Below, one piece after another: positions 57,841 through 61,740 of a stretch of 64,000 nt of DNA. The notes beneath the pieces were generated by a model. It was not told the origin of the DNA, searched no databases, and saw only the letters and a program-made list of their open reading frames with translations. The stretch comes from Bacteroidota bacterium (GTDB lineage Bacteria > Bacteroidota > Bacteroidia > Chitinophagales > Chitinophagaceae). Position 1 is the first letter of the stretch. Every line of letters begins with the position of its first letter. The position numbers were made by a program, and so were the translations under genes. The DNA is taken from assembly GCA_018267955.1 (NCBI GenBank), contig JAFDXL010000005.1, positions 372,001-436,000 of the forward strand, given 5' to 3'.

Positions 57841-58344
57841 ATGCGATCACTATTAATACTCAGCACCGGAATTATTGCAGCCGGTTTTGCCATCGCCGCC
57901 ACCGGTAGCGGCCTGGATGTAACCAGCCCTGTATTTAACAACAACGGGATGATACCGAAGAAATATTCCTGCGACGGGGATAATGTGAATCCGCCATTGA
58001 GCATTGACCATCTGCCGGTAGGCACTAAGACCGTGGCCCTGATCGTGCACGACCCGGACGCCCCTAAGAAGGGAGGGTTTACGCACTGGGTGATGTGGAA
58101 TATAAAACCGGGAATGCTGATCACAGAAAATTATAAAGATGCGGAACAGGGATTGAACGGATCGGGCAAGAAGGGCTATACCGGTATGTGCCCGCCATCC
58201 GGTACTCATCATTATCATTTTATGGCGTATGCATTGGATGTAAGCCTGAACATTGATAAACGCACTGATAAAAAATACCTGGAGAAAGCCATGAAGGGAC
58301 ATATACTGGCGCAGGGTGATTTGGTGGGGTTGTATAAGAAGTAG
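57841..58344 (+). CDS. PEBP-family protein (YbhB/YbcL type), exported
   Basis: A 167-residue protein with a short signal peptide (I-L-S-T-G-I-I-A-A-G-F-A-I-A-A). The PEBP core is visible: F-N-N-N-G-M-I-P-K-K-Y-S-C-D-G-D-N-V-N-P-P-L, then V-A-L-I-V-H-D-P-D-A-P and the H-W-V-M-W-N-I motif, with G-Y-T-G-M-C-P-P-S-G-T-H-H-Y-H-F. The D-P-D-A-P and G-x-H-x-Y parts line the ligand pocket of the family. The bacterial role is uncertain. The first copy of the hairpin repeat array lies 6 bp beyond its stop. Confidence 0.9.
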   Translation: MRSLLILSTGIIAAGFAIAATGSGLDVTSPVFNNNGMIPKKYSCDGDNVNPPLSIDHLPVGTKTVALIVHDPDAPKKGGFTHWVMWNIKPGMLITENYKDAEQGLNGSGKKGYTGMCPPSGTHHYHFMAYALDVSLNIDKRTDKKYLEKAMKGHILAQGDLVGLYKK

Positions 58345-58350
58345 GATCGT

Positions 58351-58597
58351 ATTGTTACTTAACACCACCTCCCCCTCGTACCTCGGGTACTCCTCCTATA
58401 AACAGGAGGAGAGATTTATTTTTGGGGGGGTGTTCTCTCATTGTGACACATAACCACCTCCCCCTCGTGCCTCGGGGTACTCCTCCTATGAACAGGAGGA
58501 GAGATTGGTTGTAGTATTCCTTACCCTCATTGTTACTTATAACCACCTCCCCCTCGTTGCACTCGGGGTACTCCTCCTATGAACAGGAGGAGAGATT
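58351..58597. repeat. Left array: three ~67-bp hairpin repeats
   Basis: Copies at 58351-58416, 58440-58506 and 58529-58597, spaced 89 bp apart. Each has the order ATTGTTAC...ACCACCTCCCCCTCG, then CTCGGG(G)TAC, then a hairpin CTCCTCCT/AGGAGGAG around a 6-base loop (ATAAAC or ATGAAC), and ends GAGATT. The spacers are 22-23 bp and are weakly alike. The last copy ends one base before the stop codon of the DUF559 gene. Confidence 0.92.
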
Positions 58598-58966
58598 TTA
58601 ATGGTTTTCAAAACATAACTGGATTTGGTATAGTACCTGGTTGATATTATTTAATACATCATTGTTTGGGAAACGAAGCACTTTATAGCCAAGTTCGTGA
58701 AGCCGGGTATCACGTTCTTTATCGTTGATTATATTCATTGGGGCTTGATGTATTTCTCCATCGAGTTCTATGATGAGTTTTTCGGAGGAGCAATAAAAAT
58801 CGACGATATAATTTTCGATGCTGTGCTGGCGACTGAATTTATGATTAGCTAGCTTTTTATTTTTCAGATAGTTCCACAGGGCTGCCTCTGCCGGTGTGGC
58901 GTTGTTGCGCAGTTCTTTTCGGATTTCTTTAAGGTGGCGGGCGTTGTGTATCCAGTCGTGGGACAT
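58598..58966 (-). CDS. DUF559 endonuclease-domain protein embedded in the repeat array
   Basis: A 122-residue protein of the DUF559 family, related in fold to very-short-patch-repair (Vsr) endonucleases. The pattern is clear: A-T-P-A-E-A-A-L-W-N-Y-L-K-N-K, then F-S-R-Q-H-S-I-E-N-Y-I-V-D-F-Y-C (Asp56), then L-I-I-E-L-D-G-E-I-H (Glu67, Asp69, His73). These acidic residues are the expected PD-(D/E)XK-like metal site. The gene lies between copies 3 and 4 of a five-copy repeat and accounts for nearly all the extra length between them. The role is unknown. Confidence 0.88.
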   Translation of the reverse strand: MSHDWIHNARHLKEIRKELRNNATPAEAALWNYLKNKKLANHKFSRQHSIENYIVDFYCSSEKLIIELDGEIHQAPMNIINDKERDTRLHELGYKVLRFPNNDVLNNINQVLYQIQLCFENH

Positions 58967-58994
58967 GAAATGAAGATAGCAATTAGTTTCTCTT

Positions 58995-59152
58995 ATTGTT
59001 ACTTATAACCACCTCCCCCTCGTTGCACTCGGGTACTCTCCTATGAACAGGAGGAGAGATTGTTCGTAGTATTGCGTTTCCCGCATTATTACACATAACC
59101 ACCTCCCCCTCGCTGCACTCGGGTACTCCTCCTATAAACAGGAGGAGAGATT
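58995..59152. repeat. Right array: two ~67-bp hairpin repeats
   Basis: Copies at 58995-59061 and 59085-59152, spaced 90 bp apart. They have the same order as the left copies, including CTCCTCCT/AGGAGGAG; copy 4 has lost one base in the left arm (ACTCTCCT). Copy 4 begins 28 bp upstream of the DUF559 start codon. The spacer GTTCGTAGTATTGCG resembles the GGTTGTAGTATTCC spacer of the left array. Confidence 0.92.
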
Positions 59153-59183: not shown

Positions 59184-59609
59184 TTATTCTTCTTTTACCA
59201 ATCTCAGAAACTCGCGGATGAGGCGCCAGGTACTGATGATAAAACCCAGCCAGGCAAAAAGAATTAAAGTTGTGAATTTGGATACCTTTTTGAAATTGTT
59301 ACTATAAAAAGCTGTCAATGAAGGTTGGTTGTAAGAGCTATGGTTTTGGACTATCGAGAAATGGAAATAGACAAATGACAGTAATATGAGTATCGACAAA
59401 AAGCGTGTCCACCAGTTATTGATCTTACCGGCGGAAAGGAATGGAAGAGAAATAAAATACAGGAAGGAACATGCATCGACAAAAAGCAGTGTAAGAAATA
59501 GCACGATAGCATCCCCGAAGCTATCGCTGTTTAAAGGGTCTGCATGGACGGTGAGGCTGCATAGCAGCAATAATATTGTAGCATGGAGGAATTTGGGTTT
59601 GATGGGCAT
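59184..59609 (-). CDS. Small membrane protein of unknown function
   Basis: A 141-residue protein with a signal-like N-terminal hydrophobic segment (H-A-T-I-L-L-L-L-C-S-L-T-V-H-A) and three further segments (A-I-V-L-F-L-T-L-L-F-V, S-I-L-I-L-L-S-F-V-Y-F, T-T-L-I-L-F-A-W-L-G-F-I-I). I do not recognise a family. I use the ATG at 59609, which begins a regular signal segment; an ATG at 59624 would add five residues. It is next to the repeat array on one side and a terminator on the other. Confidence 0.65.
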   Translation of the reverse strand: MPIKPKFLHATILLLLCSLTVHADPLNSDSFGDAIVLFLTLLFVDACSFLYFISLPFLSAGKINNWWTRFLSILILLSFVYFHFSIVQNHSSYNQPSLTAFYSNNFKKVSKFTTLILFAWLGFIISTWRLIREFLRLVKEE

Positions 59610-59632
59610 AGAGTAAAGATACATTTTGAATT

Positions 59633-59663
59633 AAAGAGGTCCCAGTAATACCGGGACCTCTTT
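59633..59663 (-). terminator. Terminator after the low-G+C T9SS cargo gene
   Basis: Perfect 11-bp stem AAAGAGGTCCC/GGGACCTCTTT with a 9-base loop, 25 bp beyond the stop of the 59689-61740 gene. The tail on the minus strand is AATTCAAAATG, so it ends weakly. Confidence 0.7.
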
Positions 59664-59688: not shown

Positions 59689-61740
59689 TTATTCAATCAC
59701 TATCTTCTTAGTGTACTTTGAACCATTTAGATCTACATTGCCAATATATACTCCGGGAGTTAACGCGGGCAAACTGATGTTTACCACACTGCTACCAGCT
59801 TCAGCTTTACCTGTTTTATAAACAATTTTGCCTGTAACATCTGTGATATTGAACGTAAAGGCATCGCTATTACTTAATACTTTTGGTAAAATGATATTCA
59901 GCTTATCTGATGCAGGATTAGGGTAGATATCAATACCTCTGTTGGTAGTAAGAGAATTGATGTTTGTTGTTTTATAGTATCCCAATGCGCAATTATGCTC
60001 AATAGCCGTAGGGTAATCATTTTGTGGTTCTAAAATAGAGGTTACCTGTACAGAATATGTTGCTGGTAAAAAATTTAGAGAATGGTCCATGTCAGACATA
60101 AAAGTATTTGTACAATCATTTACCTGATTTTGGCAACTATTTTCATCGCCATTGTTATCAGTTCTCAAATATTTTGTACCAATATTTGCCGTAGTAGGGC
60201 TACTTATGGGACTTATAGTAATAATATCTTTCGAAGGATCATTATTAACTTGAAGAGACGGCGTGCACAATCTTTTAAAATCCTGTAGAGTCGAACCCAC
60301 TGGTGGTGGATTATATGTTGGGAAGCCGGAATAGTAAGCTGCAGTCCCATTGGCCGACAAATGTATGGTGTGCTTGGGAACAGATCCTGACATTCCTGCC
60401 GATGAATTCCAGCTAAGAGTGAACTGCGAGATAAAAGGATTTACATTTGTATAATTTGGAGCCAAACTTCCTGGATGATTAGTATTAATATCAGTAAGTG
60501 TTGATTGGCAAAATACATCTGCTTGTTCTCCTACAACTTTAAAAATCGCGCTTCCATTTGTTTCATTATAGCTTTGATAAAAGAACTGTTTTGCCCATCC
60601 ATCATGCGTAGCGCTCCTACCAACATAAGATGGCATACCATAAGGATAAGTAGTAAGATCACCTTTCAATTTAGCAATACCCCAAGAATTCCCTGTATTA
60701 TTATCAAAGTAATTTGAAAGAATATAAACATCCTGCTTAGAATTCTCATATATATCAATCCCATAAAGGCCATTTATCAATGGTGTCAGCCAACCAACAT
60801 AATATGAAACAGGGATTACACAATTGCTTGCTGTGACAGATAAACTTGACGAATTTAAACGCATTGCCAGAATTCCGGCGGGCGTTCCTTTACCCGTATT
60901 GATACCTCCAGTAACTAATATCTCTCCCGGATGACCTTCAGACAGTCTCATTTTAAGAGGCATATCATAATCTGCATAATCGCAATATGTATCCCAAGCA
61001 TAATTAGAAATTGCATGAGTATTTATATCACATTTAATTACCACGCCAATTTTATCTGTACTAGTATTTAAAGGATAGTTGTTGTATGCAACATTCCCAT
61101 TCGCAGCAAAACCGCATATGTATAATTGATCATTGTAACATAGGGCATGTGTTGGGTATAGATTTGTATATGTGATTTGTGATGTTGCATTTTTAATATA
61201 AAATCTATTTGTCGGGGTTGGGTCAGAAAGATTGACATCTATCTGATGACAATAAATAAAATCTTTTTGCGTACCAACCGGCCTCATTTGTCTAGCCTGT
61301 GCTATGATCCAGAAATTATTTGTAAAAGACCCAAGGTTGTTATACTCTGGCGTAATTCTAACTGACTCATATCCAACTAATGGATCAATATTTGTACCTA
61401 TTGGAGCCCATATTAGTCTTGAAGCTAAAATATTTCCAGATGCATTAAGTTTAATAATATGGAGTGCAAACACATCAGGATAATAAGTAGACAAAGTTTG
61501 TACACCTCTTTTTGTTCCTACAGCGATAAACTCTTCGGGAACACCGTTTATTCCGGTACCAGGAATTTGTTCGATAGAATATCCATCGTAATCATTTATC
61601 CATTCATGACTGTTGACGATAGCTGATGTCTTAAGGCTAATACCAAGCAATAAAGTAAGGAGCAGTAGATGAAAGAATGAAGTATTCTTTGTGTGGAAAG
61701 CAAATTTGTCTGCATAGAGCAGAACTTTGTTAGTGATCAT
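59689..61740 (-). CDS. Secreted protein with T9SS type A sorting domain, low G+C
   Basis: A 683-residue protein. After a long N-terminal region comes a hydrophobic export segment (L-L-L-L-T-L-L-L-G-I-S-L). The body is rich in Asn, Tyr, Ser and Thr and shows no domain I can name; it has repeated beta-like stretches such as D-I-Y-E-N-S-K-Q-D-V-Y-I-L-S-N-Y. The last 80 residues (I-D-I-Y-P-N-P-A-S-D-K-L-N-I, then I-T-D-V-T-G-K-I-V-Y, then L-T-P-G-V-Y-I-G-N-V) are a classic type A sorting domain. The DNA is strikingly AT-rich: sampled lines 61021-61080 and 61141-61200 are 25 and 30 percent G+C, against 52 percent for 62101-62160 in the next gene. That suggests acquisition or fast evolution. Confidence 0.85.
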   Translation of the reverse strand: MITNKVLLYADKFAFHTKNTSFFHLLLLTLLLGISLKTSAIVNSHEWINDYDGYSIEQIPGTGINGVPEEFIAVGTKRGVQTLSTYYPDVFALHIIKLNASGNILASRLIWAPIGTNIDPLVGYESVRITPEYNNLGSFTNNFWIIAQARQMRPVGTQKDFIYCHQIDVNLSDPTPTNRFYIKNATSQITYTNLYPTHALCYNDQLYICGFAANGNVAYNNYPLNTSTDKIGVVIKCDINTHAISNYAWDTYCDYADYDMPLKMRLSEGHPGEILVTGGINTGKGTPAGILAMRLNSSSLSVTASNCVIPVSYYVGWLTPLINGLYGIDIYENSKQDVYILSNYFDNNTGNSWGIAKLKGDLTTYPYGMPSYVGRSATHDGWAKQFFYQSYNETNGSAIFKVVGEQADVFCQSTLTDINTNHPGSLAPNYTNVNPFISQFTLSWNSSAGMSGSVPKHTIHLSANGTAAYYSGFPTYNPPPVGSTLQDFKRLCTPSLQVNNDPSKDIITISPISSPTTANIGTKYLRTDNNGDENSCQNQVNDCTNTFMSDMDHSLNFLPATYSVQVTSILEPQNDYPTAIEHNCALGYYKTTNINSLTTNRGIDIYPNPASDKLNIILPKVLSNSDAFTFNITDVTGKIVYKTGKAEAGSSVVNISLPALTPGVYIGNVDLNGSKYTKKIVIE

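Follow-up and report, generated by a model that had tools for sequence, protein, structure and literature searches.

In the window, the 64,000-nucleotide stretch of DNA analysed here, a small nuclease gene of the DUF559 family sits inside an array of five hairpin repeats, which raises the question of whether the gene is a bystander among the repeats or whether gene and repeats form a unit that moves. The original prediction, which had proposed that the gene either inserted into the array or moves together with it, was confirmed as an observation and partly supported in its interpretation. Our analysis suggests that the window contains one copy of a putative small mobile element common in Bacteroidota, probably the intergenic form of a mobile nuclease-palindrome element. 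A larger fact lies beyond that prediction: judging from their sequences, relatives of the nuclease are found in frame inside essential genes.

The repeat array and its nuclease gene

The features of the locus are as follows.

57841..58344, plus strand: PEBP-family gene (PF01161, E 4e-37), left neighbour, outside the element
58364..58411, plus strand: repeat copy 1, ACCACCTCCCC tail and hairpin at 58390-58411
58453..58501, plus strand: repeat copy 2, hairpin at 58480-58501
58542..58592, plus strand: repeat copy 3, hairpin at 58571-58592
58598..58966, minus strand: gene for a 122-aa DUF559 nuclease, located where the spacer separating copies 3 and 4 would be; homing-endonuclease/Vsr fold predicted
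59008..59056, plus strand: repeat copy 4, left hairpin arm without one base
59098..59147, plus strand: repeat copy 5, hairpin at 59126-59147
59184..59624, minus strand: gene for a 146-aa protein without a Pfam match at E 0.001, right neighbour, outside the element

The five repeats with a period of 89-90 bp were found where they had been placed (tails 58364-59098): the ACCACCTCCCC tails start at 58364, 58453, 58542, 59008 and 59098, and the tail-to-tail periods are 89, 89, 466 and 90 bp. The 466-bp period and its excess of 377 bp (466 - 89) at the DUF559 gene are as originally described. The predicted positions of the gene ends were also borne out, with the stop codon abutting copy 3 and the start lying ~28 bp from the repeated flank of copy 4 and 41 bp from its ACCACC tail.

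The hairpin pattern CTCCTCCT-N6-AGGAGGAG occurs five times in the window when up to 3 mismatches are allowed, four times perfectly. Shuffled windows gave a mean of 0.06 matches and 0 of 100 shuffles reached five, ruling out chance. The claim that all five repeats carry the same hairpin held for copies 1, 2, 3 and 5 but not for copy 4, whose left arm is one base short; the shorter hairpin still folds, but no better than shuffled sequences (z -0.48), whereas the other four copies reached z values of -1.9 to -2.1. Among 17 distinct hairpins gathered from genomes of the genus with a pattern allowing 3 mismatches, the second stem pair was T-A in 12, C-G in 4 and unpaired in 1. It alone of the eight pairs varies on both sides, so that the covariation, which comes from one stem pair, is a small sign that pairing is kept. 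Because the repeats of the window array are direct and not inverted, the array is not a textbook terminal-repeat element. A CRISPR array was considered and rejected, as the spacers are semi-conserved between units and not unique (judged from the array alone); a reading as a known RNA was likewise rejected, the Rfam search around the window having returned three sub-threshold matches that we took as chance. Outside the array, two 15-bp arms that are 93% complementary and 1 base apart lie at 59633-59663, just past the 3' end of a minus-strand open reading frame ending at 59689, and are possibly a terminator.

The open reading frame in the array encodes a DUF559 protein, in agreement with the original prediction (PF04480, E 5e-35, 120 bits against a curated cut-off of 20.6). 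When an AlphaFold2 model of the protein (pLDDT 85) was searched with Foldseek, it matched the homing endonuclease I-Bth0305I (3r3p; E 1.5e-5, TM 0.64/0.79) and 3hrl, with Vsr far weaker (1vsr, E 0.029). A profile search agreed, finding 3hrl and I-Bth0305I (profile E 1.3e-4), and by its predicted structure the protein has the Vsr/EDxHD homing-endonuclease fold. Residues D56, E67, D69 and H73 were invariant in 32 of 32 sequences, both solo and in-frame, and are presumably catalytic, a role that we take from the superfamily. In 15 nuclease pairs, synonymous sites were saturated in 6; among the 9 computable pairs, 8 had dN/dS values of 0.05-0.19, indicating purifying selection, and the ninth, formed by tandem DUF559 genes in a relative (G244), had a value of 0.66.

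Association of DUF559 genes with hairpin repeats

The genome that contains the window (4.18 Mb in 10 contigs) has two DUF559 genes. The second encodes a protein of a different lineage and also lies in an array, with four direct copies on the left and one inverted copy on the right, built from a different hairpin family. The window hairpin family was counted 9 times in this 4.18-Mb genome (up to 3 mismatches; 0 for a backwards-pattern control), with 4 hairpins in the window array, where copy 4 fell below the threshold, and 5 elsewhere, none of them near either DUF559 gene. On contig C8 of the same genome, a third repeat family (CATTGCGGGCCCGACCCGCAATC type; L016:1390-1467 and 1563-1640) is interleaved with two orphan window repeats. 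This genome also has degenerate tandem repeats with an 8-bp period beside orphan hairpin repeats, at L016:1282-1369 and L018:1578-1728.

The window repeat family was present in 6 of the 12 genus genomes searched; one genome without it (G094) yet has three DUF559 matches. The six repeat-bearing genomes, including the window's own, contain 61 repeats. The expected clustering at DUF559 genes was seen for 23 of these, which lie within 1 kb of such a gene where 0.1 would be expected under a uniform distribution (15 in G244, 4 in the window array, 3 in G251, 1 in G250 and none in G245 or G246; 19 of the 23 sit in the window array and its G244 orthologue), but not for the other 38, orphans lying more than 1 kb from any DUF559 gene. 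The orphans point to an element with dispersed solo repeats, not to a closed array. The same six genomes have 13 DUF559 matches, 9 of them with flank repeats of at least 30 bits; the remaining 4 are two full-length (L155, L156) and two partial (L164, L165) matches. Only 2 of 13 outer control windows reached 30 bits, both in the G244 array.

The orthologue of the right neighbour (59184..59624) in G244 marks the same locus, where a count of tails gives 17 units for the array; 15 of its hairpins match the pattern, and it holds two DUF559 genes, each replacing a spacer. Copy and gene number thus differ between relatives, with 5 repeats and one gene here and 17 units and two genes in G244. No empty version of the window site was found among 14 other genomes of the genus, the right neighbour occurring only in G244, which is also element-bearing. 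The match to this neighbour in G244 (L049, G244:C23:400296-400730) contains one TAA.

DUF559 was present in 128 of 244 genomes of the family and 170 of 296 genomes of the phylum. Each domain was scored by the best repeat within its two 500-bp flanks with the domain masked, and 30 bits was taken as the threshold. In Set 1 (85 of 86 domains from 80 fetched loci, chosen among the best matches listed, and the window locus), 55 of 85 domains had flank repeats, compared with 12 of 320 control windows 2.2-3 kb away, with five loci included whose repeats were already known or suspected (L001, which is the window locus, L075, L078, L079 and L080). Set 2 comprised 26 of 30 phylum loci picked automatically, the other 4 being cut by contig ends, and gave 19/26 against 4/26 controls. 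Set 3, consisting of 82 of 85 domains from 80 named loci selected by similarity to the window protein, gave 69/82 against 25/297 controls; because the closer alignment A2 replaced the whole-diversity alignment A1, which was too varied, these loci lean to the window's clade. When Sets 1 and 3 were pooled and five duplicated loci removed, 119 of 161 domains had flank repeats, compared with 30 of 258 windows centred on intergenic gaps, and 42 of 161 had none at the threshold. The pooled domains divide into solo genes (98/121 with flank repeats) and in-frame copies (21/40). Since the loci are mutually related and not phylogenetically independent, p-values overstate the certainty of these comparisons and are indicative only.

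The repeats were arranged either as direct tandem arrays or as inverted repeats flanking the gene at short distance; the best repeat was inverted in 16 of 16 Pontibacter loci tested, and the repeat family varied from locus to locus. These counts support a partnership of DUF559 genes with hairpin repeats throughout Bacteroidota. A similar habit was found for GIY-YIG genes of the same family of genomes, in which 20 of 24 loci had flank repeats compared with 0 of 24 outer windows; 6 of 30 loci were excluded as cut, and part of this signal comes from tandem gene copies. Such tandem GIY-YIG copies often have a period of ~340-380 bp (G071:C11:46873-47761, G055:C1:638659-640009, L286-L315).

In-frame copies inside housekeeping genes

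Among the best family matches listed, 88 of 150 lie in open frames of at least 260 aa, and in the 80 fetched loci 34 host ORFs hold 36 in-frame DUF559 domains. Hosts were named by scanning representatives, and the remainder were assigned by BLAST clusters.

Leucyl-tRNA synthetase (LeuRS): 13 loci, two with two inserts
Isobutyryl-CoA mutase IcmF: 5 loci
Methionine synthase (MetH): 4 loci
CinA: 2 loci
Chorismate synthase (AroC): 2 loci
Acetylglutamate kinase (ArgB): 2 loci, N-terminal, possibly read-through fusions
Nucleotidyltransferase: 1 case, N-terminal, possibly a read-through fusion
Further hosts: M23 peptidase, methionyl-tRNA synthetase (MetG), ligase-associated helicase, IspG and Eco57I-type methylase

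The LeuRS genes have two insertion sites, of which site 1 was filled in 9 of 13 loci and free in 4, and site 2 was filled in 6 of 13, so that both sites occur in filled and in empty form. In-frame inserts contain translated hairpin ends, and in one locus (L136) the repeat forms an in-frame tandem run. LeuRS was single-copy (one locus above the cut-off) in 13 of 13 insert-bearing genomes, suggesting that LeuRS remains functional with the insert. Insertion in frame into conserved genes that are apparently still in use, as in Rickettsia palindromic elements (RPE), is thus seen for relatives of the window copy, itself intergenic.

In the phylogenetic tree, which was built on only 104 columns and whose bootstrap is unsettled, in-frame lineages mix hosts: one starred clade contains LeuRS, IcmF, MetH, CinA, MetG and M23 peptidase, and another contains LeuRS, AroC and the helicase. 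For LeuRS site 1, the branches with strong support require 3 or more changes, a number that a single gain with two losses could account for. Solo and in-frame copies lie largely apart, with 6 changes of the solo label compared with 36 in shuffles.

In L019 (G052:C9), a 1380-aa frame that looks HsdR-like by eye contains a DUF559 domain and a GIY-YIG domain, each of them in frame. L253 and L257, from Cyclobacterium, have DUF559 together with repeat-derived peptides in frame in an HsdM-like methylase (host named by eye). L246, from a Desulfosarcina MAG, and L151 have in-frame DUF559 in methylase-like proteins (Eco57I-type by Pfam for L151, named by eye for L246); they come from two phyla and are sisters on the tree, possibly because the complete gene was transferred or because a contig was misbinned.

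Movement of the element and comparison with known systems

We compared the near flanks of the 161 domains with the ends of the nuclease genes masked, using only pairs without similar outer flanks, after four duplicated loci had been removed and L075, which is the same place as L196, had been excluded. The near flanks were related in 4 of 1854 pairs below 40% protein identity, 32 of 6258 at 40-50%, 74 of 2728 at 50-60%, 181 of 1494 at 60-70%, 82 of 130 at 70-80% and 2 of 4 at 80% or above. At the level of sequence, this comparison shows that relatedness of the nucleases goes with relatedness of their repeats even in different genomic contexts.

A more direct case was found in genome G064, which has two copies that are identical at 458 of 461 bases and whose flanks are otherwise unrelated. 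Hairpin-like repeat sequence lies within ~20 bp of both ends of this unit, although the ends fold no better than shuffles. A related short repeat, alike in 22 of 23 bases, lies 55-69 bp upstream in both places. Besides the 2 full copies, the genome has 7 partial matches, all of them gene-less and restricted to the unit's right end; the 461-bp unit itself shows no gene other than DUF559. In G219, elements in metG and cinA are close on the tree and share 72% DNA identity over 365 bp, which is an older relationship. The claim that the gene moves together with its repeats thus gained support from both the G064 copies and the flank sharing, and we are highly confident that nuclease gene and repeats constitute a mobile unit.

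What moves this unit can be explained in several ways. A RAYT/HUH transposase, or one of another kind, might act on the repeats in trans, DUF559 being a passenger caught between them; the anatomy is indeed REP-like, in that each repeat combines a tail with a hairpin and copies occur both solo and dispersed and as close inverted pairs, and PMC3733652 names RAYTs as the presumed movers of such repeats. However, the same pairing is seen again across the phylum with other repeat families and other DUF559 lineages, GIY-YIG as a second small nuclease family shows the same habit, and DUF559, with purifying selection in 8 of the 9 scorable pairs, is too constant a partner for a chance passenger, so that we consider a trans-acting transposase unlikely. 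Alternatively, DUF559 could be a Vsr-like repair or restriction nuclease serving the host, with hairpin-rich arrays merely permissive for small genes. Its predicted fold is also Vsr-like (1vsr, E 0.029), and PMC12907096 makes the case that Caulobacter VsrA, which belongs to DUF559 and is linked to a solitary cytosine methyltransferase, is a Vsr of mismatch repair. This explanation, already weakened by the G064 copies and the intergenic control, is distinctly unlikely, since near-identical copies at two sites and insertions into aminoacyl-tRNA synthetases are unexpected of a repair gene, intergenic control windows were rarely repeat-bearing (30/258), and even copies in coding sequence were repeat-flanked in 21 of 40 cases.

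Two further explanations concern the in-frame domains. They could be ordinary fusions with a regulatory or moonlighting role, unrelated to the intergenic elements, as might be suggested by their separation from solo copies on the tree (6 label changes against 36), by purifying selection on in-frame copies where scorable, and by the three N-terminal cases (ArgB twice and the nucleotidyltransferase) that could be read-through fusions. We consider this quite improbable, because single starred clades span as many hosts as LeuRS, IcmF, MetH, CinA, MetG and M23 peptidase, LeuRS site 1 is filled in 9 of 13 loci and free in 4, and the inserts carry translated hairpin ends. It seems hardly tenable that the inserts represent self-splicing introns or inteins that encode a Vsr-like homing nuclease. 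I-Bth0305I is filed as a mobile intron protein and Vsr-like nucleases occur beside split inteins, but Rfam gave no hit at gathering score for the 11 in-frame loci scanned, the hits listed for 15 host proteins in NCBIfam (E up to 1e-10) and for 8 in Pfam (E up to 0.001) included no intein family, and the reading frame runs through the inserts without a stop.

We return to an element spread by its own nuclease. The fold, the pairing of nuclease with repeats, the purifying selection and the lack of any other gene in the 461-bp unit are the grounds for proposing that the nuclease drives the movement and, with more reserve, that the repeats are its target; that the nuclease causes the movement is reasonably probable, and that the repeats are what it cleaves is a more tentative suggestion. 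The nuclease would nick or cut at or beside its cognate palindrome, or at a new site, and repair of the break would copy from the element-bearing locus with the repeats as homology, leaving nuclease and repeats at the new site. Solo repeats may then be landing pads as well as non-autonomous (MITE-like) derivatives, and repeated cutting and repair could lengthen or shorten the array, which has 5 units here and 17 in sister genome G244. Insertions into genes would survive only if the element can be read through in the host frame over its full length and falls in a tolerant loop, and some lineages appear to be specialised for such insertion. The element is likely a new type of selfish gene. It could even represent a new class, nuclease-driven palindromic elements, a proposal that we put forward with some reserve, in which a Vsr/homing-type or GIY-YIG nuclease without a transposase would spread itself and its hairpin repeats through Bacteroidota, and stop-free lineages would jump between essential genes and stay there as permanent unspliced inserts.

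This reading joins three puzzles, namely the role of DUF559, the mover of the hairpin repeats of Bacteroidota, and the presence of palindromes in frame in essential genes. DUF559 is rarely named in the open-access literature, in which, with few subscription journals covered, we found no account of DUF559 genes with repeats, in line with the original statement that no named system of this kind was known. If the nuclease moves the element, homing-type mobility without an intron, intein or transposase would add another route to those of RAYT transposition and classical homing, and it would explain why a nuclease domain lies in the sole LeuRS of at least 13 genomes of the window's family. If the proposed class is real, the same principle could supply the missing enzyme for Rickettsia-type in-frame palindromic elements.

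Among known systems, MITEs and small insertion sequences resemble the element in their short units, many of them with inverted ends, and non-autonomous solo copies. They differ in that no known transposase is seen in the unit and no target-site duplication was established. Inverted ends occur in many loci; in the window the repeats are direct. RPEs are described in the parts of PMC10969869 and PMC3733652 that were available as palindromes of ~150 bp lying in frame in genes of working proteins, with no gene of their own mentioned there. In-frame palindromic insertion in genes is common to both, but here a nuclease gene is carried inside and the unit with its gene measures 461 bp.

The comparison with REP/RAYT systems made in the original prediction is apt as an analogy. 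Like a REP/REPIN system with its RAYT (REPtron), the element has tail-plus-hairpin repeats, solo and paired copies dispersed in the genome, and an enzyme gene flanked by the palindromes. It is not a member of that system, because its gene encodes no HUH Y1 transposase and instead a DUF559 protein with a predicted Vsr/PD-(D/E)XK-type fold; in addition, in-frame insertion in housekeeping genes is frequent among the element's relatives. Homing endonucleases offer the other parallel, I-Bth0305I (EDxHD) being the nearest functionally named match by both fold and profile, and selfish spread by cutting and repair being what we propose for the element. The element differs from them in its hairpin ends and in occupying many different sites instead of one conserved target. 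It is also not housed in a self-splicing intron (11 loci, Rfam) or an intein (listed host-protein hits), but homing endonuclease genes also exist in free-standing form, and the element may still belong to that subtype. Our best reading is a self-spreading nuclease-palindrome element that would work like both a REP/RAYT system and a homing endonuclease.
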